Shown: piece after piece, positions 8,940 to 18,054 of the stretch
Layout of the letters: every line of letters starts with the position of its first letter
Numbering within the stretch: the stretch's first letter is position 1
NCBI RefSeq assembly: GCF_000344615.1
Contig: NZ_KB467824.1
Location: forward strand, 1,639,741 to 1,703,740
DNA length: 64,000 bases
Direction: 5' to 3'
Origin: Janthinobacterium sp. CG3
Lineage (GTDB): Bacteria; Pseudomonadota; Gammaproteobacteria; Burkholderiales; Burkholderiaceae_D
The notes under the pieces: model-generated
The model's database searches: none
Told to the model about the DNA's origin: nothing
The model's input: the letters and a program-made list of their open reading frames with translations, nothing else
Position numbers and translations under genes: made by a program

Positions 8940-10304
8940 TTGGATGGACGTTTCATGGCGCTCTCGGTTTGGCTGGATACCCCGCAGCAGACGCAGGCCG
9001 GCAACGGCAGCACGCTGGCCTCGGCCTTGAAGCAGGCTCAGGTAATTATCCAGGCAATGCCGCCCTGCCCCTCCGGCTACGGCGTGGTGTTGTTCGACCA
9101 GCCCGACGCGGCGCTGCTCGAGGCGCTGCGCCAGCGCTGCGCCCAAGCAACAGTGCTGGCCATTTCAACCTCGGCGCAAGCGCTGCCGGTGTCCGATATG
9201 CGCGCCGTGCTGGACGCCGGCGCCGCCGATTTGCTGCTGTGGCCGCCCGGCTCGGTCTGCGCCGAGCAGGTGCTGGCGCGCCTGAGCCGCTGGGACGCGG
9301 TGCAGCGGCTGGCCGATTCGAGCCAGGTGCGCGGCCGCCTGGTCGGCGCCAGCGCGCCGTGGCGCGCGCTGGTGCGCAGCGTGGTCGAGGCGGCGGCCTT
9401 CACCCAGGCGTCGGTGCTGATCACCGGCGAGACCGGCACCGGCAAGGATGTGATCGCGCAGCTGATCCATGCGCTGGGCGACTACAAGGGCGAGCTGACG
9501 GTACTCGACTGCACCACGCTGTCGCCGGAACTGGCCGGCAGCGAACTGTTCGGCCACGAGCGCGGCGCCTTTACCGGCGCGGCCAACCCGCGCGACGGCG
9601 CCTTCGCCATGGCCGACGGCGGCGTGCTGTTTCTCGACGAGGTAGGCGAATTGCCGTTGGCGATGCAGGCGCAGTTGCTGCGCGCGATACAGGAACGCAA
9701 GTACAAACGGGTCGGCAGCAACACCTGGCAACCGAGCCAGTTCCGCCTGGTCTGCGCCACCAACCGCGACCTGGAGGCGGAGGTGGCGGCCGGCGGTTTC
9801 CGCGCCGACTTGTATTACCGTATCGCCGGCTGGCGCTGCCGGCCGCCGCCGCTGCGCGAACGCCCCGGCGACATCCTGCCGCTGGTCGCGCATTTCCTGG
9901 CGCAACTGTCGGCCCAGGGCCAGGCTTGCGAGCTCGATCCGGCCGTGCGCGAGTATTTCCTCACCCGCGACTATCCCGGCAATGTGCGCGACCTGCGCCA
10001 GGCCGTCACCCGGGTCTGGCAGCGCCACAGCGGCCCCGGCCCGATCACCATCGGCGACTTGCCGCCGGACGAGCGGCAGGCCGCGGCGGCGTGGCCGGAC
10101 CGCTATTTCGAAGCGGCGATCGGCCACGCTATCGACCTGGGCATCGGCCTGTCGCGCATCAGCCAGACCGCCGCCGAGATGGCGATACAACTGGTGCTAC
10201 AGCAGGAAGGCGACAACAACCAGCGCGCCGCGCTGCGTCTGGGCGTGACCGACCGCGCCTTGCAGATCCGCCGCAAGGCCAGGGCGCTTGTGGCGAAGCC
10301 GTGA
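8940..10304 (+). CDS. sigma-54-dependent transcriptional activator (enhancer-binding protein)
   Basis: A 454-aa AAA+ activator that remodels sigma-54 RNA polymerase at -24/-12 promoters. The central domain has Walker A GETGTGKD (about 163-170), ELFGHERGAFTGA with the sigma-54-contact loop, Walker B VLFLDEVGELP, and the R-finger region FRADLYYRIAGW. The N-terminal 125 residues look like a receiver domain (ends LDAGAADLLLWPPG) but I see no phospho-acceptor Asp setting, so control is probably not by a standard kinase. The C-terminus (NNQRAALRLGVTDRALQIRRKA) fits a Fis-type helix-turn-helix. The start may be TTG 8940 or ATG 8955; neither has a strong ribosome site. It ends 11 bases from the convergent seven-gene operon that carries an exact sigma-54 promoter, its likely target. 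Confidence 0.9.
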   Translation: MDGRFMALSVWLDTPQQTQAGNGSTLASALKQAQVIIQAMPPCPSGYGVVLFDQPDAALLEALRQRCAQATVLAISTSAQALPVSDMRAVLDAGAADLLLWPPGSVCAEQVLARLSRWDAVQRLADSSQVRGRLVGASAPWRALVRSVVEAAAFTQASVLITGETGTGKDVIAQLIHALGDYKGELTVLDCTTLSPELAGSELFGHERGAFTGAANPRDGAFAMADGGVLFLDEVGELPLAMQAQLLRAIQERKYKRVGSNTWQPSQFRLVCATNRDLEAEVAAGGFRADLYYRIAGWRCRPPPLRERPGDILPLVAHFLAQLSAQGQACELDPAVREYFLTRDYPGNVRDLRQAVTRVWQRHSGPGPITIGDLPPDERQAAAAWPDRYFEAAIGHAIDLGIGLSRISQTAAEMAIQLVLQQEGDNNQRAALRLGVTDRALQIRRKARALVAKP

Positions 10305-10315
10305 TACCGCCGGCG

Positions 10316-10987
10316 TCACCAGTCGCCCATGACGACGATGTTGTTGCCGCGCCGGCGCCAGCGCCCGCTCTGCGTCTCGTCTTCGCCCTCTTGCTCGCCC
10401 CCGGTTTGCATGTGCGCCGCCGCGGCGTCGGGCACGTGCCGGCGCACCGCCTGCGCCAGCGCGTCCCGCAGCGCACTCGGGCTGCCGTCGCCGTCGGCCG
10501 CCAGGCGCGCCGCGCTGCCGGCGATGCGCACGAAACGGCGCGCCATTTCCATCTCCCGCTGCTCGTAGTCCATGCCTTCGAGTTCGACTTCCAGGGCCTG
10601 GCTGACGGCGCTGCCCAGTGCGCTGCCCAGCGCCGTGCCGACGCCGGGTATCGGGATCATGCTGCCGAGCGCGCCGCCGACCAGGGGCAGCGCTTGCTTG
10701 GCGATGGCCTTCAGGGCGCCGCCCAGCGGCTTGGCGACCTTGCCGACGAAGGAGCCGACTTTTTTGACGCCCTTCCAGATGCCCTTGAACATTTTTCCGA
10801 GGAATTGGTCGAGTTCAGCCTCGCTCGCCACCGACAGCAACTCCATCGCCAGTTCCATTTCCTCGGCTTCGCTGAACGGGCTTTCGTCGGCGACTTCGAG
10901 GAAGCCCCAGCTTTGCCGGCCGAACTCCAGCACTTCAAAGGCGCCGGTTTCGCGGCACGCGCCGCATGTGCAGTCACTCTTATGCAT
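10316..10987 (-). CDS. Gly-rich-core paralog 1 with CxCxxC N-terminus (last gene of the sigma-54 operon)
   Basis: A 223-aa protein of unknown function, one of three paralogs in this operon. Start at 10987 follows GGGAG with good spacing. Order: a CTCGAC cysteine cluster (6-11); a conserved acidic helix EEMELA…AELDQFLG (42-64); a cationic then Gly/Ala-rich core (65-132: GIWKGVKKVGSFVGKVAKPL, later ALPLVGGALGSMIPIPGVG); a second conserved block VELEGMD…MEMARRFVRIAG (134-157); a variable linker; and a C-terminal SGRW-R-RGNNIVVMG motif (207-221). The core looks amphipathic and glycine-zipper-like, as in membrane-inserting proteins. I recall similar uncharacterised proteins across bacteria but no function. 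Cytoplasmic, exported and membrane locations are all possible. Confidence 0.75.
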   Translation of the reverse strand: MHKSDCTCGACRETGAFEVLEFGRQSWGFLEVADESPFSEAEEMELAMELLSVASEAELDQFLGKMFKGIWKGVKKVGSFVGKVAKPLGGALKAIAKQALPLVGGALGSMIPIPGVGTALGSALGSAVSQALEVELEGMDYEQREMEMARRFVRIAGSAARLAADGDGSPSALRDALAQAVRRHVPDAAAAHMQTGGEQEGEDETQSGRWRRRGNNIVVMGDW

Positions 10988-11033
10988 GGTGCTACTCCCT
11001 GTTGTGGTGTTGATTCGAACCAAGCCAGATGCC

Positions 11034-11049
11034 AGGGCCGCCCGGCCCT
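11034..11049. terminator. GC hairpin before paralog 1
   Basis: AGGGCCG (11034-11040) pairs with CGGCCCT (11043-11049) directly at the stop codon of the GIY-YIG gene. There is no T-run in either direction, so it is more likely a processing or stability element within the operon than a strong terminator. A similar hairpin precedes paralog 2. Confidence 0.4.
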
Positions 11050-11860
11050 ACCATTCGTAGCCGAGGATTTCCTGCTCCATTTCGCGGCGCTGGTTGGTCA
11101 GCACGTTGGCGTTGTTAGCGAACATGTCGGTGTGGATGCGCCGTTCCAGCGCGCGCCGTTGCGGATCGCTGAGGGTCGGCATTTGCGCCACGTAGACCTT
11201 GTGCTTGGCCAGCGACAGCCCCATCATCCGCGCGCACAGCAGGTGCTGCTGCAGGCGCTGGCGCAGGTCCCTGGTCTGGCCGCTGTAGGCGCGCGGCTGG
11301 TTGTCGACGCTAAACTCGATCAGGTACAGGCCCGGTCCGCTGGCGGCGGGGTTGCGAAGCGCGCCGCCGATGGCGCCCAGCGCCTGGTACGGCGGGCGCT
11401 GGTGCGCCGGCAGGCGCGCCAGCGCCGGGGCGATGCTCGGCGGCGCCTCGCCCTGCTCGTCGGGCGCGTCAGCGTCGCCGCTGTCGGCGTCGTCCGCTTG
11501 CGGCTGCGGTTCGGGATACGGAAACGGCTCCGGATAGGCTTGCGGATACGCTGCCACCGGCACCGCGTACGGCCAGCCGGCGCCGTAGTAGGGGCCGAAG
11601 CCGGGCCGGGGCCGGCGTGGCCAGCCATGGCGCTGCGGTTGCAGCGGTGGCGGCGACTTCGAACGCGCCAGCGGCTGCGGGCGCGACTTCGGCCGCGACC
11701 GCGGCATGGCGCGCGGGCCGCGCCAAGCGCGTTCGAACTGCGTCTCGCTCTCCATTTCGCCGTCCATTTGCCATTCCCACTGCGTTTCGCATTCCGCTTC
11801 GCACTCCGTATGCAGCCCGCTTTCAGCCGCGAAGGGCAAGGTTTCGAATTGCTCGTTCAT
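11048..11860 (-). CDS. GIY-YIG nuclease-domain protein with acidic/aromatic N-terminus
   Basis: A 270-aa protein. The C-terminal third is a GIY-YIG domain: GLYLIEFSVDNQPRAYSGQT supplies the GIY-like (GLY) and YIG-like (YSG) strands about 10 residues apart, followed by RDLRQRLQQHL with the conserved Arg, and a late Glu in ALERRIHTDMF. Catalysis is therefore plausible. The first 45 residues are full of Glu and aromatic residues (ECEAECETQWEWQMDGEMES), followed by a basic Arg/Pro/Lys stretch and a Pro/Tyr-rich linker. Its start overlaps the stop of the PLP enzyme gene by four bases (ATGA). An alternative is a non-nuclease DNA-binding or structural use of the fold; typical UvrC, SLX1 or homing-endonuclease partner domains are missing. 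Confidence 0.78.
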   Translation of the reverse strand: MNEQFETLPFAAESGLHTECEAECETQWEWQMDGEMESETQFERAWRGPRAMPRSRPKSRPQPLARSKSPPPLQPQRHGWPRRPRPGFGPYYGAGWPYAVPVAAYPQAYPEPFPYPEPQPQADDADSGDADAPDEQGEAPPSIAPALARLPAHQRPPYQALGAIGGALRNPAASGPGLYLIEFSVDNQPRAYSGQTRDLRQRLQQHLLCARMMGLSLAKHKVYVAQMPTLSDPQRRALERRIHTDMFANNANVLTNQRREMEQEILGYEW

Positions 11861-12876
11861 GTCGCCTCCAGTAGATGATATTGAAGCGCCGCCACGGCGC
11901 CGTCGATGTCGGCCGGCGTGTGGTCGGCCCGCAGCAGGAAGGTCAGCGCGCCGCTGCCCAGCACGCTGTCGACGCCGCTGCGGCGCAGCCCGGCGTGCAG
12001 CGCGGCGGCGTCGACGGCGCGCTCGAGCGGCACGCTCTGCACCGGAAACGCGCCGCCGCGGCTGGCCACGCCAAGCCGCGCCAGCGCGCCGCGCCACTGC
12101 GCCACGCGCTGGCGCAGCAACGCGCGCAGCGCGTCGCCGCACTGCCGGTTCAGCCGCAGCGCGCGCGCGCCGGCGCGGATCGCCGCCGTCGACGGCGGGC
12201 TGGTGTGCACGCGCGTGCCGCTGTGCGCCTCGAAGCGCCGCAGCAGCGCCGCGCTGCCGGCCAGCACCGCCAGCGGCGCGCCGAAGCCCTTCGCCAGCGA
12301 GGCGCCGACGACCACGCCGGGGCCGGCCAGCCGGTGCAGCGGCACCGAGCCGCCGCCGCCCGGGCCGAGCAGGCCCAGCACCTGGGTGTCGTCGAGCACC
12401 AGGTAGCCGCCGCCTGCGCTGGCGATCGCGGCGTACTGCGCCAGCGGCGGCGCCCGCTCGGCGCCGGGGCAATAGCCGTCGGCCAGGATCAGCGGCCGCC
12501 GGCCGGCGTCGCGCCAGCGCCGCGCCAAGCGCCCGGCCGCCGGCGCGTCGCCGCGCCCGAACAGCTGCATCGGCAGGCCCAGCGCCGCGGCGCGCTCGGC
12601 GCCCCAGCGCGCAATCGGGTACGCGCCGGCGTCAACCAGCAGCGCCAGCCGCTCCTGCGCCAGCAGGCCGAACAAATCCCAGAACAGGTGCAGCGTCGAC
12701 GGCAGCAGGCTCGCCGCCTGGCAACCCTGCAGCGCCGCCAGCCCAGCCGCCAGCGCCACGCCGCCGGGCGGCTCTTGCAGCGCGGCCGGCTTGCCCAGCG
12801 TGAGCGCGTCCCAGTCGCCCAGCGCGGCGCCGGGATGGCGCAGCCCCAGGTACAGCGCGCTGGTGAAGTCGGCCAT
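11857..12876 (-). CDS. AONS/KBL-like PLP-dependent enzyme with altered active site
   Basis: A 339-aa fold-type I PLP enzyme resembling 8-amino-7-oxononanoate synthase and 2-amino-3-ketobutyrate ligase, which condense an amino acid with an acyl-CoA. The PLP lysine is in GASLAKGFGAPL (about residue 195) and the ring-nitrogen Asp in LVLDDTQVLGLLG (about 160). In AONS the latter motif reads DDAHGxG; here His is replaced by Gln. The usual SHAS motif that stacks a His on the cofactor appears as AGAYPI. It is also about 40 residues shorter than AONS, mostly at the N-terminus. Start ATG 12876 lies 11 bases after the upstream gene's stop. It is not beside any bio genes, so biotin synthesis is unlikely; the substrate is unknown. 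Confidence 0.75.
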   Translation of the reverse strand: MADFTSALYLGLRHPGAALGDWDALTLGKPAALQEPPGGVALAAGLAALQGCQAASLLPSTLHLFWDLFGLLAQERLALLVDAGAYPIARWGAERAAALGLPMQLFGRGDAPAAGRLARRWRDAGRRPLILADGYCPGAERAPPLAQYAAIASAGGGYLVLDDTQVLGLLGPGGGGSVPLHRLAGPGVVVGASLAKGFGAPLAVLAGSAALLRRFEAHSGTRVHTSPPSTAAIRAGARALRLNRQCGDALRALLRQRVAQWRGALARLGVASRGGAFPVQSVPLERAVDAAALHAGLRRSGVDSVLGSGALTFLLRADHTPADIDGAVAALQYHLLEAT

Positions 12877-12887
12877 GCGGCGCCGCC

Positions 12888-15035
12888 CTACAGGCTGCGG
12901 ACCTGTTGCGCCAGGCGCTGGCGCAACAGCACCGACGGCAGCGTCGCCTCGATGCTCGGGTCGACCGCGTCGACCGACAGGTCGACCCCGGTGGCGGCGC
13001 GGTAGCCGTGGATGTAGCCCTGCACCTGCGGGCGCCAGAAGCGCGCCCAGTTGAACGCCTGGGTCGGCTCGTAGATGTCGCTCCAGTTGCCATAGCGCAC
13101 GGACAGCAGCAACTGCTCGCCGAACATCGCCAGGCTGCGGAAGTGCATCACGCTGGTGTCGGTCCAGCCCTGCAGCTTTTTCATCGCGTCGACCCGGTCC
13201 ATCCACGGCTCCGGGTAGGCCACCATGACGCGGGTGGGCAGGAATTCGCGGAACTCGGGCCGCGCCAGCAGCCACTGCTGCATCAGCATTTCGATGCGCG
13301 CCGTCGACGGCAGGTCGCCGAACTGGTTGTGCGCCCCCTGCGACAGGATCAGGTGCACCTCCTTGAGGGCGTTCAGCACCGGGAAGGCGTCGGCCTTGAC
13401 GGTGGTGTCGTCGTCCTGCCGGTAGAACGAGGTGAGCAGGCGCAGCAGGTGGTGGAAGGCTTCCAGGAACTTCGAGCGGCTGTCGGCCGGGCGGAAGTTG
13501 CGCACCGCCTTGCCGTCCAGGCGCACGCCGTAGTGGTGGTCGTACTCGTAGTTGCGGCGCACCACGGTGAGGCGGTGCTGCTCGTCCTGGGTGTAGCCCC
13601 ACAACAGGTTGTTGAGCGGGCGCAGCATGTCGATCTCGGTGTTCGCCAGCGGGTCGTTCGACGGGCCGGGCGCGCGCAGGTTCTGGAAGCGCTGGGTGAT
13701 GGCGTTCATGGTTTGCACCAGCATGCCCTCCTCGTGCCAGTACGACCAGATCAGCTCGAGCAGGCAGGGGTTGGCCAGCTTTTCCTGGATGATGCCGAAG
13801 CACAGGTCGACCTCGCCCTCCTGGCCGCGCGGGATGCTGATGGGAATGTCGGGCAGCTTGCGGCGGATCACCGCCAGGTAGGGCAAGGTCTTAACGCCGC
13901 CGTCGATGCTCTCGAGGTAGTCGTTGCGCAGCACCGTTTCCAGGTCGCGCCCGGGGGGGATGTCGCGCCGGTCGAGGTAGGCGTTGTCCTCGGCCGGATT
14001 GAACGCCAGCGGCTGGTTCAGCACGCCGCAGTTGACCATCACGAAGGCCTCGGTGGCCACCTTTAAGACGCGGTAGGCGTCCGAGTCGGTGAACGGCAGC
14101 ACGCGCCGCTGCTTGAGCTGCTGGAACGCCTCGACCTTCTTGCCGAAGCGCTCCAGCTCGAAGCCGCGCAGGTTGGTGCCGGCCTGGTCGGGGCAAAACA
14201 GGCTGTCCATGAAATGCAGGTAGTTGGTAAACGACATCGCCTCGGTGCTGTTGCGGATCAAGGTCCACAGCGGCAAATCCTCGGTCGGCTCGGTCTCGGT
14301 GCGCGTCAGCGAGACGCCCACGTTGCCCGAGATCGGCTGCGGCACGCGCTCCTCGGCCTCGAAGTCGGCGCCCACCGCCAGCAGCGCGCGCGGACCGGTG
14401 CCGTCCGGGCCGTCTGGCAGGCCGGCCAGGCCGGCGATCAGCTCGGGCCGGCGCGCCAGCATCAGCTGGGCGGCGAACAGGTGGCGCCCGGGCCGCCGCA
14501 CGGCGCTGCCGAAGGTGCGCTCCTCGCCGTGCACCGGCTTCCACGGCGCCGCCGCGACCAGTTCGACCAGGTCGCGCCCGTCGACGCTCTGGTCGCCGGT
14601 GAAACCGATGGTGGCGAAGACCCGGTCGCTGACGCGGCCGGTGCGGCAGTGGCTGGGCTGGCAGTCGGCCGTCTCGAAGCGCAGCGTCACCTTCGGCGCG
14701 ATTTCCGGCTCGAAGCACACCAGCGCGCTGCAACCGGCGCGCACCTCGGCGCACTGGGCGTCGGTGCGCGGGAAGTTCTCGTACACCAGCACGTAGTTGC
14801 CCGGCGTCAGATTGGGAAACTCGGCGTTGCCGCTGCTGTCGGTCCAGTGGATGCCCAGCCGTTCGCCCGCCGCCGGCGCCCAGGCCGCCGCGTCGAACGT
14901 GCGGTAGTCCTGCAGCCCGCAGCCGTACAGGCTGACGGCGGCGTTGACGATGGCCGCCCCGCTGGCGCTCTCCTGCACGCACACCTGCACCGCGCCGGGC
15001 CGGATTTTCTTTGCCCCCGTGTTCTTGCTGCTCAT
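12888..15035 (-). CDS. 715-aa protein of unknown function with N-terminal Ig/prealbumin-like domain
   Basis: I do not recognise the family. The first about 115 residues look like a CNA-B/carboxypeptidase-regulatory beta-sandwich (VQVCVQESASGAAIVNAAVSLYG, then DSSGNAEFPNLTPGNYVLVYE). The remaining 600 residues are soluble and mostly helical, with conserved-looking aromatic segments such as MSFTNYLHFMDSLFCPDQAG, LLELIWSYWHEEGMLVQTMN and NYEYDHHYGVRLDGKAV, and a C-terminal WARFWRPQVQGYIHGYRAATG. There is no signal peptide, membrane segment or obvious catalytic triad. GAGGAG lies just before ATG 15035. It is the largest member of the operon, between the metallopeptidase and the PLP enzyme, so it may be the scaffold or effector of the system; that is a guess. 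Confidence 0.65.
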   Translation of the reverse strand: MSSKNTGAKKIRPGAVQVCVQESASGAAIVNAAVSLYGCGLQDYRTFDAAAWAPAAGERLGIHWTDSSGNAEFPNLTPGNYVLVYENFPRTDAQCAEVRAGCSALVCFEPEIAPKVTLRFETADCQPSHCRTGRVSDRVFATIGFTGDQSVDGRDLVELVAAAPWKPVHGEERTFGSAVRRPGRHLFAAQLMLARRPELIAGLAGLPDGPDGTGPRALLAVGADFEAEERVPQPISGNVGVSLTRTETEPTEDLPLWTLIRNSTEAMSFTNYLHFMDSLFCPDQAGTNLRGFELERFGKKVEAFQQLKQRRVLPFTDSDAYRVLKVATEAFVMVNCGVLNQPLAFNPAEDNAYLDRRDIPPGRDLETVLRNDYLESIDGGVKTLPYLAVIRRKLPDIPISIPRGQEGEVDLCFGIIQEKLANPCLLELIWSYWHEEGMLVQTMNAITQRFQNLRAPGPSNDPLANTEIDMLRPLNNLLWGYTQDEQHRLTVVRRNYEYDHHYGVRLDGKAVRNFRPADSRSKFLEAFHHLLRLLTSFYRQDDDTTVKADAFPVLNALKEVHLILSQGAHNQFGDLPSTARIEMLMQQWLLARPEFREFLPTRVMVAYPEPWMDRVDAMKKLQGWTDTSVMHFRSLAMFGEQLLLSVRYGNWSDIYEPTQAFNWARFWRPQVQGYIHGYRAATGVDLSVDAVDPSIEATLPSVLLRQRLAQQVRSL

Positions 15036-15072
15036 GTCAATCTCCTCAATGGAAAGTCATACGGTGTTCAAG

Positions 15073-16389
15073 CTAGAAGGCGCGGCGCCGGCGCCCGGCC
15101 GTGGCGCTGCAGATCAGCGAGATGTCGAGCGCGCTGCGCAGCGCCCAGTGGGTCAGCAGGCGCGCCAGCAGCGTGCCCTCGTCTTCCGGGTTAAGCTGGC
15201 CGCCGGCGCGGGCCTGGCCCAGCACCGCGAACACCAGCGACGGCGCGGCGCGGTACATCTGTTGCGGCGCCCGGTTCCAGGCGTGGAACAGGCGTTCGAG
15301 CCGGGCCGGCTGGCGCGCACGCACCCCCATCACCTCGACCAGCGAGGCGCCGCGCAGCGCCGGCGGGCGGTGGTTGGTCAGCACCCCGACCAGCGCCGGC
15401 ATGCTCGCCTGCAATTGCGCCAGCAACGCCAGTTGCCCCGGCTCCAGTCCCTGCGGCGGGTAGAACGCCAGCCACATGCGCTCGATGCGGTCCCATTGCG
15501 GGTGCGGATACAGCGCCCGCCCCATCGCGCAGCTCAGGCGCACGCGTATCCACGGCGCCGGGTGCGGGTCGTCCTCGTTGAGGCGGAAGACGAACACGCG
15601 CGGCAGGCTGACCACGCCGATCAGGCCCAGCGTGGCGACCACGCCGACCCGCGCCAGCGACCAGAAGTCGGCGACGATTTCGCTGATCCAGCGCTCCCAC
15701 AGGCGCCACGGGCGCGCCTGCCCGGGACCGCCGCGCGCCAGCGCCTGTAGCACCGGGCGCAGCGAATTGACCAGGTCGAGCAGGGCCGCGCCCTGGTGCC
15801 CGACCTCGTGGATCAGCGAGGAGGCGATGGCGCCGCCGATCATGCGCTCGCGTGGCACGCGGATGATGGCGACCGGGTTGTCGCCGCCCCCCGGCAGGCG
15901 GGTGCGGGCGCGGCGGATCGCCGCGCCGGGGCCGCGGTCGAGGTAGCAGATCACCGGCGGCGCCTGGAAGTAGCCGCCCGGCAGCGCCAGCGCGTCGGCC
16001 GAGACCACGTCCAGGCCGGCCAGCCAGACCCCGTTCTCGCTCTCGCTGCGCTGGGTGATGACGTCGTTGAACAGGTCGAACTGGGTCAGCGTGGCGTTGA
16101 ACTTCAGGCGCAGGAAGGTGAAGCGCCGCTGCGCCTCGGCCGCCGTGGCGCTGCGCGCCTGCGGCCCGTCCAGCCACAGCAGGAAGGCCGTCACCAGCGC
16201 CTGCAATTCGCGCCGCCCCAGCACCAGATGGCGCTCGATGGCCGACTGGGCGTCCGGCTGCAGCGCGGCGGCCGCCACGGTCGGCTCGATCAGCGCGAAC
16301 GGGCGCACCAGCGCCAGCCGGGCGCGCAGCGCGCGCGCCTCTTGCGCCAGCATCCACGAGGCGTAGGAGCCGATGGCCATGGCCGTCAA
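15073..16389 (-). CDS. HEVGH-type zinc metallopeptidase-like protein
   Basis: A 438-aa protein with a gluzincin-like active site: SLIHEVGHQG (His and Glu of HExxH near residues 193-197) and, about 40 residues on, SEIVADFWSLA, where Glu would be the third zinc ligand as in ExxAD motifs. The N-terminal half is helical (EARALRARLALVRPF, VTAFLLWLDG). The C-terminal half has a hydrophobic patch VVATLGLIGVVSLPRVFVF that could pack on membrane or form a core strand pair. No signal peptide. The start is either TTG 16389, overlapping the preceding stop as TTGA, or ATG 16380. Its place directly after paralog 2 suggests that it processes one or more of the paralogs, which is inference. Confidence 0.7.
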   Translation of the reverse strand: MTAMAIGSYASWMLAQEARALRARLALVRPFALIEPTVAAAALQPDAQSAIERHLVLGRRELQALVTAFLLWLDGPQARSATAAEAQRRFTFLRLKFNATLTQFDLFNDVITQRSESENGVWLAGLDVVSADALALPGGYFQAPPVICYLDRGPGAAIRRARTRLPGGGDNPVAIIRVPRERMIGGAIASSLIHEVGHQGAALLDLVNSLRPVLQALARGGPGQARPWRLWERWISEIVADFWSLARVGVVATLGLIGVVSLPRVFVFRLNEDDPHPAPWIRVRLSCAMGRALYPHPQWDRIERMWLAFYPPQGLEPGQLALLAQLQASMPALVGVLTNHRPPALRGASLVEVMGVRARQPARLERLFHAWNRAPQQMYRAAPSLVFAVLGQARAGGQLNPEDEGTLLARLLTHWALRSALDISLICSATAGRRRRAF

Positions 16390-17171
16390 GCGCCGTACAG
16401 GACGATTTTATGGCCCTGGCGGACCCAGCGCCCGCTATTGCCGCGCGCGCCGACGCCGCCGTAGGCGGAGGCGCCGACCTGGCTGCGCCCGGCCATGGCG
16501 CCGCCCTGCCCGACCATCTGCCCGGCCATCTGGCCGCCCATCTGGCCGCCCAGCCCCTGCCCGCCCGCCTGGGCGCCGACCATCTGGCCGCCGATCTTGC
16601 CCAGCAAGCCGGGCGCGAACTGGCGCGCCGCCGCCGCCGCGGCCGACTGCGCCACCGCGCGCGGGTCGCCGCCACGCGCCGAGGCGGCCCGGTTGACGGT
16701 GTCGGCGGCCAGCCGCACGAACTGGCGCGCGCCCTCGTATTCGCGGTCCTCGCCGGACATCTCGGCCTCCAGCCCGAGCGCGCCGCTGGCCGCCGAGGCC
16801 AGGCCGCTACCGATCTTGGCGCCCAGCGGACCGCCGAAGAAGCCGCCGACGGCGGTGCCGGCCAGCGGCAGCGCCTTCTTCGCCACGCCCTTGAGCACGC
16901 CGCCGATGGCCTGGCCGACCGGCGACTTGATGACGTTGCCGGCGAACGAGGCGGCCTTGCGCAGGAAGTTGCCGAGGAATTGGTCAAGCTCGGCCTCGTT
17001 GCTGACCGACAGCAACTCGTTGGCCATCTCCATCTCCTCCGATTCCGAAAACATGCCCTGCTGGCCGCTTTCGCCGCTCCACTCGCCCTGGCCGAACTCG
17101 AACTGCTGCTCGGCCTCGTAGCCGCCCATCTCCTGGCCGTATTCCAGCGTCGTACGATCGATGTCATGCAT
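16386..17171 (-). CDS. Gly-rich-core paralog 2
   Basis: A 261-aa member of the three-paralog family. Start at 17171 follows GGGGAG; the first bases ATGCATGA mirror paralog 1 (ATGCATAA). Order: acidic/aromatic leader (EYGQEMGGYEAEQQFEFGQG); conserved helix EEMEMA…AELDQFLG (45-67); cationic then Gly-zipper core (68-135: SPVGQAIGGVLKGVAKKALP, then VGGFFGGPLGAKIGSGLA); conserved block with GEDREYEGARQFVRLAAD; a Gln/Met/Gly repeat region (GGQMGGQMAGQMVGQGGAMA, about 200-225); and a C-terminal SGRW-VRQGHKIVLYG. The repeats are unique to this paralog. The core suggests membrane insertion or self-assembly. Function unknown. Confidence 0.75.
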   Translation of the reverse strand: MHDIDRTTLEYGQEMGGYEAEQQFEFGQGEWSGESGQQGMFSESEEMEMANELLSVSNEAELDQFLGNFLRKAASFAGNVIKSPVGQAIGGVLKGVAKKALPLAGTAVGGFFGGPLGAKIGSGLASAASGALGLEAEMSGEDREYEGARQFVRLAADTVNRAASARGGDPRAVAQSAAAAAARQFAPGLLGKIGGQMVGAQAGGQGLGGQMGGQMAGQMVGQGGAMAGRSQVGASAYGGVGARGNSGRWVRQGHKIVLYGA

Positions 17172-17204
17172 GATGAACTCCCCTTGTAGGTGAACCAAAC
17201 AATG

Positions 17205-17227
17205 CCGGGGCGGACCGCCCGCCCCGG
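17205..17227. terminator. GC hairpin between paralogs 3 and 2
   Basis: CCGGGGCGG (17205-17213) pairs perfectly with CCGCCCCGG (17219-17227) around a 5-base loop, immediately after the stop codon of paralog 3 and 33 bases before the start of paralog 2. Read leftward it is followed by CATTGTTTGG, a weak T-rich tail. It could be a partial terminator or stability hairpin that makes paralog 3 more or less abundant than the rest. Confidence 0.5.
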
Positions 17228-17854
17228 TCAACCATTCAGGACAATGATGCGATTGCCCTGCCGCTGCCAGCGCCCGCTGCGCGCCGGCGTGTCGGCGGCG
17301 CTGCGCAGCAGGCCGGGCGCGTGGCGCCTGGCCGAGCGCGTCAGCGCCGCCTGAACCTGGACCCGCGGATCGGCGTTGCCGGCGCCGGCCGCCCCGGCCC
17401 CCTTGGCGACGGCATCGGCGGCGTCGGCGGCGAAGCGCACGAACAGCCGCGCCACGTCGAATTCCTTGTCTTCCGGGCTGAGCCCCTCCAGTTCCATGCC
17501 GAAGATGCGCGCGGCGCGCGCCTTCAGGTCGCCGCGCCCGTCCGCGCCGGCAACCGCGCCGTTGCGGCCGACAGCGCCCGGGCTGCGAATCGGCAGCAGC
17601 ACCCGCGCCGCCGGCCGCAGCGCCGCCACCAGCGCGCCGCCCAGCGGCGTGTTCAGCAGCCCGGCGCCGCCGACCCGCGCCACCAGCGCCCCCAGGAAGG
17701 CGTCCAGTTCGGCGCTGCCGGCCACCTCCAGCAAGGCGGCGCCGAAGGCCATTTCGGTGTCCTCGTCGCCTTTCGGCGGGCGCGTCGGCGCCGGCGCCGC
17801 GGCGGCGGCGGCGATTTCAAGGTCGGGAATATAGTCCAGCAAACGACGCTCCAT
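17228..17854 (-). CDS. Gly-rich-core paralog 3 (first gene of the sigma-54 operon)
   Basis: A 208-aa member of the three-paralog family. I start at ATG 17854 (MERRLLDYIPDL), where the similarity to the other paralogs begins; the open frame extends to 18133, but that would run through the sigma-54 promoter. Conserved helix EMAFGAALLEV…AELDAFLG (34-55); hydrophobic core (56-95: LNTPLGGALVAALRPAARVL); conserved block MELEGLSPEDKEFDVARLFV; C-terminal SGRW-QRQGNRIIVLNG (193-208). The core is less glycine-zipper-like than in paralogs 1 and 2. No Cys cluster. As the first gene after the promoter it may be made in the largest amount. Confidence 0.72.
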   Translation of the reverse strand: MERRLLDYIPDLEIAAAAAAPAPTRPPKGDEDTEMAFGAALLEVAGSAELDAFLGALVARVGGAGLLNTPLGGALVAALRPAARVLLPIRSPGAVGRNGAVAGADGRGDLKARAARIFGMELEGLSPEDKEFDVARLFVRFAADAADAVAKGAGAAGAGNADPRVQVQAALTRSARRHAPGLLRSAADTPARSGRWQRQGNRIIVLNG

Positions 17855-17924
17855 GTGCGGCTCCGCTCGGAAAATGGGGGCAGGCGGCGCGTTGCCGCGC
17901 ATTGCTGCCGATAGCACTCGGTAT

Positions 17925-17940
17925 TGCAAGCGCCGTGCCA
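17925..17940 (-). promoter_or_regulatory. sigma-54 (-24/-12) promoter of the seven-gene operon
   Basis: Read leftward, TGGCACGGCGCTTGCA matches the sigma-54 consensus TGGCACG-N4-TTGCW at every defined position, with the preceding C and following G also favourable. The -12 GC is at 17927-17926, predicting a start point near 17914, 60 bases before the ATG of paralog 3. A sigma-54 activator is encoded at 8940-10304 at the other end of the operon. Confidence 0.85.
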
Positions 17941-18010
17941 GCGGCCGCCGCGGGCGCGCCGCGCCCGGCCCGGCCAGCGCCGGCGAAGCGCGCTTCGGAT
18001 TGGCCGCGGC

Positions 18011-18054
18011 GCCGGGCGGGGCCGCCGAAAACGCCTTCGGCGGCCCCGCCCGGC
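18011..18054. promoter_or_regulatory. perfect 19-bp inverted repeat, candidate enhancer (UAS)
   Basis: Arms GCCGGGCGGGGCCGCCGAA (18011-18029) and its exact complement (18036-18054) flank a 6-base spacer. The centre is about 119 bases upstream of the predicted sigma-54 start point, the usual range for activator sites. No T-run follows in either direction, so it is unlikely to be a simple terminator. Confidence 0.55.

Follow-up and report, generated by a model that had tools for sequence, protein, structure and literature searches.

Within a 64-kb stretch of the Janthinobacterium sp. CG3 genome – the whole of which is called the window here – lie seven tightly spaced leftward open reading frames (ORFs) at 10316-17854, with a sigma-54 promoter ahead of them and a convergent gene for a sigma-54 activator beyond. 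The initial annotation of this DNA had proposed such an operon, with an exact -24/-12 promoter and a GAFTGA activator, and this arrangement is borne out, all seven ORFs being present in the order given there. Here, we compare the operon with its relatives in other bacteria, describe a paired upstream site that accompanies its promoter, and weigh what its products may do. An antagonistic effector system is the most likely reading, although we hold it with somewhat less than even confidence.

Organization of the locus

From the promoter, the order is parA, parB, a peptidase, a 715-amino-acid (aa) protein, a pyridoxal phosphate (PLP) enzyme, a GIY-YIG protein and parC, with likely starts at 17854, 17171, 16380, 15035, 12876, 11860 and 10987, respectively. 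The GIY-YIG start overlaps the PLP enzyme stop as ATGA. The activator gene begins at ATG 8955 or TTG 8940 and ends at 10304 on the plus strand, 11 bp from the end of parC. A chance overlap of ORFs is ruled out by their conservation in relatives. The features are as follows.

18026-18039, minus strand: putative distal upstream activator dyad, CGAA-N6-TTCG, one of a pair whose spacing is 41-43 bp in 67 of 77 loci
17984-17997, minus strand: putative proximal upstream activator dyad, CGAA-N6-TTCG; the pair is the sole one found in the genome
17925-17940, minus strand: sigma-54 -24/-12 promoter TGGCACGGCGCTTGCA, by consensus match
17228-17854, minus strand: parA, glycine-zipper paralog 1, 208 aa, by family profile
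16386-17171, minus strand: parB, glycine-zipper paralog 2, beginning MHDIDRT, C-terminal GRWVRQGHKIVLYGA, by family profile
15073-16380, minus strand: zinc-peptidase-like protein with HEVGH and downstream E and D, by motif; of no known family
12888-15035, minus strand: 715-aa protein; helical core at about 245-714, highly conserved, preceded by two CnaB/prealbumin-like beta domains at the N-terminus
11857-12876, minus strand: BioF/AONS-like PLP enzyme with conserved Lys196 and Asp162, by NCBIfam bioF match and alignment
11048-11860, minus strand: tailed GIY-YIG protein, read as a short form of a PG_binding_1, Amidase_2 and GIY-YIG family
10316-10987, minus strand: parC, glycine-zipper paralog 3, beginning MHKSDCTCGAC, C-terminal GRWRRRGNNIVVMGDW, by family profile
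8955-10304, plus strand: sigma-54 activator, AAA+ with GAFTGA and an N-terminal domain of no assigned family, convergent with the operon

Conservation and distribution

The loci compared are the window and 80 others, the best of 183 found by searching genome contigs for relatives of the 715-aa protein. This set is biased toward the 715-aa protein as the search query, its Janthinobacterium members are near-copies (the nearest fetched locus, from Janthinobacterium fluminis, has 89% identity for the 715-aa protein), and several contigs are short. Presence was counted from profile assignments, since one family in the clustering (F1) wrongly merged other genes.

The neighbourhood recurs in most of the 80 fetched loci, from six phyla, in the order first paralogs, HEVGH peptidase, 715-aa protein, PLP enzyme, a variable gene, third paralog, usually an amidohydrolase, and activator; the amidohydrolase is absent from the window. 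Hosts include Janthinobacterium, Massilia, Duganella, Variovorax, Nitrosomonas, Methylococcaceae and Microvirga, together with Nitrospira, Methylomirabilis, Chloracidobacterium, Schekmanbacteria and Bacteroidota. Among the 81 loci, several of whose contigs end early, the peptidase is present in 78, paralogs in 76, the PLP enzyme in 74, the activator in 66 and the amidohydrolase in 63. The 65 loci with a convergent activator in view downstream of the 715-aa protein contain paralogs in 65 cases, the PLP enzyme in 63, the peptidase in 62 and the amidohydrolase in 60.

Six further loci, also found through the 715-aa protein, were excluded from profile building; three are from plasmid records, and none duplicates a profile-building locus (L157 contains L031, itself unused). 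Paralogs, peptidase and 715-aa protein are present in all six, the amidohydrolase in five and the PLP enzyme in four, while the activator, the paired upstream site and an adjacent promoter scoring at least 10 are each present in five. A conserved neighbourhood was the check that the initial annotation had put forward, and the genes do travel together across phyla with a convergent activator, as they also do at five of these six loci. Three homologous places in plasmid records contain no annotated gene.

In a set of 149 genomes that includes the window's own, the 715-aa protein and the peptidase are confined to the same 28 genomes, and par genes occur in those 28 plus one. That additional genome (G031) has a lone parC (L156:8563-9234) between flanks that match other Janthinobacterium loci, and the operon therefore looks deleted there. 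In a phylum-wide sample of 299 genomes, three encode the 715-aa protein, one of them being the window's own genome, and the system is thus sporadic. In a tree of the 715-aa core, Methylococcaceae fall among Nitrosomonas and Microvirga stands beside Lautropia, which suggests, without proving, horizontal transfer.

Two other features were noted among the relatives. Matches to the activator, amidohydrolase, peptidase and one paralog are fragmented in L072 (Polaromonas), as are those to the amidohydrolase in L046 (by profile or tblastn), suggesting decayed or misassembled copies. DUF1501 and DUF1800 genes adjoin the operon upstream in several Janthinobacterium loci (e.g. L047:3602-5041 and L046:5012-6793), an arrangement not seen in the window.

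A sigma-54 promoter with a paired upstream site

The promoter TGGCACGGCGCTTGCA (17940-17925, minus strand) fits the -24/-12 consensus at 12 of 12 scored positions, and is one of two matches in all that a pattern search of the window returned. Of 66 loci, 51 have a match scoring at least 10 close to the first paralog, compared with 108 of 1843 random 1-kb stretches drawn from the same loci, a control that includes promoter regions. The activator contains a Sigma54_activat domain (E 2.6e-56), and its GAFTGA motif is conserved across the family (at least 95% of the 63 aligned rows). The genome has one rpoN gene.

Upstream of the promoter is a CGAA-N6-TTCG dyad, usually in two copies, and the window's sites were not listed in the initial annotation; the paired upstream site is a new observation of this analysis. 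Two or more dyads, matched with a pattern defined after inspecting the same loci, are present in 57 of 71 loci and in 9 of 4374 random control stretches. A pair, sought at a spacing of 36-48 bp, occurs in 67 of 77 loci, with a start-to-start distance of 42 bp in 55, 41 bp in nine and 43 bp in three. Among the 66 loci having a box that scores 8 or more, the proximal dyad is 44-48 bp from the best -24 box in 25, 55-59 bp in 22, 122-127 bp in ten, and at scattered distances in nine. Of the 28 genomes encoding the 715-aa protein, 26 have the pair; among the 121 that lack this protein, 5 do. In the window's genome it occurs once, at 17984-18039, so that the activator would have one candidate target. 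By eye, the distal dyad is centred in a perfect 16-bp GC-rich inverted repeat (18014-18051).

What is expected of a sigma-54 operon with a dedicated bacterial enhancer-binding protein is therefore here: a -24/-12 promoter, a GAFTGA AAA+ activator and conserved candidate upstream sites, to which the activator probably binds. Because the promoters and paired sites are conserved, a dedicated sigma-54 switch for the operon, as the initial annotation had supposed, is strongly supported at the level of sequence.

The glycine-zipper paralogs

The three Gly/Ala-rich proteins were initially described as paralogs, and a single family profile run against the whole genome recovers exactly parA, parB and parC at E<=1. 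Their lengths range from 208 to 261 aa. Each has an acidic, aromatic N-terminal tail followed by a segment like ELLSVxxEAELDQFLG, a glycine-zipper core, and a C-terminal GRWxRxGxxI motif; the cores average 7.6 GxxxG motifs, compared with 3.2 in shuffles (mean of 30 sequences). No convincing match to them was found in Pfam, NCBIfam, PHROGs or PADLOC, and the weak PHROG matches of parC (best E 2.5e-4, to an endolysin family) are probably an effect of Gly/Ala composition. Two unusual par-like ORFs were seen elsewhere: a 435-aa ORF with a weak par profile match, upstream of and divergent from the operon on a Rhizobium plasmid (L153:4962-6269, minus strand), and one ORF in which the end of a GIY-YIG protein is fused to a parC-like protein (L086:12988-14076).

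The peptidase, the 715-aa protein and the PLP enzyme

In the peptidase, H191, E192 and H195 of the HEVGH motif and the downstream E234 and D238 are invariant in 35 of 35 sequences. Its structure model is confident (mean predicted local distance difference test score, pLDDT, 89.4) and has no match in the PDB at E<=0.001, the best being at E 0.22 and a zinc metallopeptidase (4l7a) appearing at E 2.1. Pfam, NCBIfam, PHROGs and PADLOC also provide no convincing family match. The HExxH zinc motif is thus present, yet no known zinc-peptidase family matches by profile or fold.

The helical core of the 715-aa protein likewise has no convincing match in the same four libraries. Profile searches against solved structures returned nothing useful. 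The best core segments are 68-71% identical to those of five Nitrosomonas loci (L087, L092, L094, L098 and L100). The N-terminal beta domains match CarboxypepD_reg or SpaA in 13 and 9 of 47 relatives, respectively. The model is of low confidence at 396-417, 426-519 and 567-618, and its top Foldseek matches are pilin/CnaB proteins. These fold matches, like the PG_binding and OmpA domains among the variable genes described below, would suit a system that remodels the producer's own envelope or assembles a surface or matrix, with tailored enzymes trimming the wall under stress. We consider this quite unlikely, as nuclease and protease variants would be needless for the cell's own wall, and the 715-aa protein shows poor conservation toward its N-terminus, some relatives being only about 500 aa long.

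The PLP enzyme matches bioF over residues 125-303 (E 1.4e-10) at 40.5 bits, where the equivalog cut-off is 426. Lys196 and Asp162, which we take from the family motif to act in PLP binding, are kept in at least 95% of 73 rows. A plain BioF pathway is ruled out by the score far below the cut-off and by the effector domains encoded alongside. For the amidohydrolase, the rest of the window's genome offers no more than a weak match at 31%, and the enzyme therefore seems dispensable there.

With these conserved active-site residues, an amidohydrolase in 63 of 81 loci and a strictly co-occurring peptidase, the operon might be thought to make a modified peptide or small molecule, the paralogs serving as precursors and the three enzymes as tailoring enzymes. 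This is improbable given the gene slots occupied by wall hydrolases and nucleases, the failure to detect the PLP enzyme in two of the six further loci with the 715-aa protein, the weakness of the amidohydrolase match in the window's genome, and the absence of matches between the window's proteins and any family of ribosomally synthesized and post-translationally modified peptides (RiPPs) in Pfam or NCBIfam.

Three Massilia loci have extra genes between the amidohydrolase and the activator (L052:15392-18235, L055:15408-17841 and, in part, L053:16034-18231). By eye, all three contain conserved genes of 371-372 aa that are SagB/nitroreductase-like, L052 and L053 an additional 161-aa GNAT-like gene, and L052 and L055 an ORF of HHPSLA repeats; the Pfam scan described in the next section gave one nitroreductase and one GNAT match. 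The extra genes may be a small peptide-modification cluster.

The GIY-YIG protein and the variable genes

Variable genes occupy two slots, one on either side of parC: the first reaches back to the PLP enzyme and the second on to the activator. Their ORFs were picked mechanically and include some false ones, 117 of 145 candidates being kept. Pfam was run on 71 proteins: 68 of these 117, hand-picked for variety, the window's GIY-YIG protein and two amidohydrolases. PG_binding_1 was found in 22 and Amidase_2 in 11, with trypsin, OmpA, GIY-YIG, VanY, NLPC_P60, muramidase, papain and HNH domains in fewer. Among the six further loci, Ensifer L151 and L157 carry PG_binding and GIY-YIG, and the slot of Rhizobium L153 has PG_binding, DUF2272 and glucosaminidase; the slot protein of L155 has no Pfam match.

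The window's GIY-YIG protein scores 20.0 in Pfam, just below the cut-off of 22.6 (the GIY-YIG regions of several relatives also fall just short of it), and its predicted nuclease residues (G177, Y179, Y192, G194, R202 and E239) are kept in at least 95% of 33 GIY-YIG rows. Proteins of Methylomicrobium (L080) and Limnobacter (L101) join PG_binding_1, Amidase_2 and GIY-YIG in a single chain, and those of L072 and L073 join Amidase_2 and GIY-YIG. Because of these multidomain relatives, the window's protein is read as a short form. The initial assignment of the domain stands, and the notion of a standalone nuclease gives way to that of a wall-hydrolase/nuclease effector variant.

Of the 117 variable genes, 26 have an FExxPF-type tail in a strict form (defined, as for the dyads, after inspecting the same loci), compared with 2 of 612 control ORFs; the tail is present also in trypsin-like (L108), OmpA (L073) and muramidase/amidase (L102) proteins. 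A hydrophobic N-terminus, scored by a crude hydropathy test, was seen in 2 of the 117 and in 86 of 612 controls, and the variable genes therefore seem to be without ordinary signal peptides.

Such a set could also serve programmed self-lysis. Holin/endolysin pairs combine membrane-active small proteins with a peptidoglycan amidase, and here hydrophobic glycine-zipper proteins are encoded beside a peptidoglycan-binding amidase; as holin-like proteins they would open the inner membrane, hydrolases and nucleases without signals would reach the wall and the DNA, and the burst would release DNA or public goods. That the variable genes mostly fail the crude signal-peptide test, that no conserved immunity gene was noticed, and that single-promoter control suits a lethal function all agree with this. 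Still, holins are simpler than a set of three paralogs in which a long acidic tail is combined with a conserved C-terminal motif, the trypsin-like, PLP and amidohydrolase genes are left unexplained, and the 715-aa protein has no match in 50,697 phage records, so that we judge self-lysis unlikely.

Proposed function

The hydrolases, proteases and nucleases without recognisable signal peptides, the glycine-zipper proteins and the tight switch together would suit antagonistic effectors or programmed lysis; we tentatively favour antagonism, with lysis as its chief rival. In this proposal the activator, on its two CGAA-N6-TTCG sites, would turn on the single sigma-54 promoter. The operon would then yield glycine-zipper proteins and a tailed effector – a GIY-YIG nuclease in the window, and an amidase, muramidase, glucosaminidase or trypsin-like protein elsewhere – with the peptidase, 715-aa protein, PLP enzyme and usually the amidohydrolase acting in maturation, the peptidase perhaps on the paralogs. 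The glycine-zipper proteins may assemble with the tailed effectors and carry them through membranes or to the cell surface, and the effectors would act against other cells, on their walls, proteins or DNA. The initial annotation had suggested an exported antagonistic or assembly system, of which the antagonistic part fits the wall-hydrolase, protease and nuclease partners.

Several observations weigh against antagonism. M20 peptidase, nitroreductase, GNAT and TPM domains, found in some variable genes, have no obvious role in attack, and toxin export accounts for neither the PLP enzyme nor the amidohydrolase. Many of the 26 strict tail matches are related GIY-YIG proteins, and a tail pattern with relaxed criteria discriminates less well (51 of the 117 variable genes, 56 of the 612 control ORFs). 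Scans of the operon proteins and of ten flanking families revealed no transporter, and no conserved immunity gene was noticed at the loci among ORFs of at least 60 aa. The last point weakens the case for antagonism against kin and leaves that against other species no weaker, a distinction that the accessible part of a review of polymorphic toxins draws for immunity (PMC3482391).

We found no description of such a system in the family libraries and papers searched, a search in which the subscription literature was mostly not covered, and the system looks previously undescribed. It is possible, if doubtful, that it represents an undescribed class of weapon or release machine, in which zipper carriers with a GRWxRxGxxI signal are matured by a new-fold metallopeptidase and a 715-aa helical enzyme and deliver tail-tagged, interchangeable hydrolases, proteases and nucleases, all under one sigma-54 promoter with a paired site spaced by about 42 bp across phyla. 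If so, environmental bacteria as far apart as Janthinobacterium, Nitrosomonas, Nitrospira, Methylomirabilis and Bacteroidota have in common a regulated effector system absent from the family libraries searched. It would bring three protein families nameless in those libraries, a clean regulatory code, and a peptidase for which no PDB match is detectable. Its regulon and function are directly testable in culturable Janthinobacterium or Massilia.

Comparison with known systems

Anti-phage defence was rejected, as the core proteins have no convincing PADLOC match; the PADLOC matches are to the AAA+ region of the activator, weak ones to the GIY-YIG protein, and a single weak one to parC (E 0.033). 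A phage origin was rejected as well, no phage record being matched and parC alone having weak matches. With the BioF/AONS alpha-oxoamine synthases, the operon's enzyme shares by motif the PLP-binding lysine and aspartate. Holin/endolysin cassettes are alike in pairing membrane-active small proteins with a peptidoglycan amidase, whereas the operon differs in lacking a phage match and in having three paralogs, variants with protease or nuclease domains, and sigma-54 control.

The nearest functional analogue is Cdz, the contact-dependent glycine-zipper bacteriocins of Caulobacter (PMC5380434). According to the accessible part of that report, these too are small glycine-zipper proteins encoded together, which aggregate and act on neighbours, and glycine-zipper proteins are present in the operon. 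The Cdz toxins are 84-86 aa long, however, compared with 208-261 aa for the operon's paralogs, and Cdz encodes its own type I secretion and the immunity protein CdzI, neither of which was recognised at the operon loci; for type I secretion genes this covers the operon's proteins and ten flanking families, and for immunity genes ORFs of at least 60 aa. Conversely, the operon has a peptidase, a 715-aa protein, a PLP enzyme and a sigma-54 activator, which that part of the report does not mention for Cdz. By the features compared, the operon is not a Cdz system.

Polymorphic toxin systems, as described in the accessible part of their review (PMC3482391), typically have a linked immunity protein, whereas no conserved one was noticed here among ORFs of at least 60 aa. 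Among the likenesses are matches, weak and below cut-off, to the PT-TG and PT-VENN pre-toxin domains. These systems combine a shared N-terminal region with interchangeable effector domains; the operon's variable genes likewise have interchangeable effector domains behind a shared N-terminus, with a tail that is short and strictly matched in 26 of 117.

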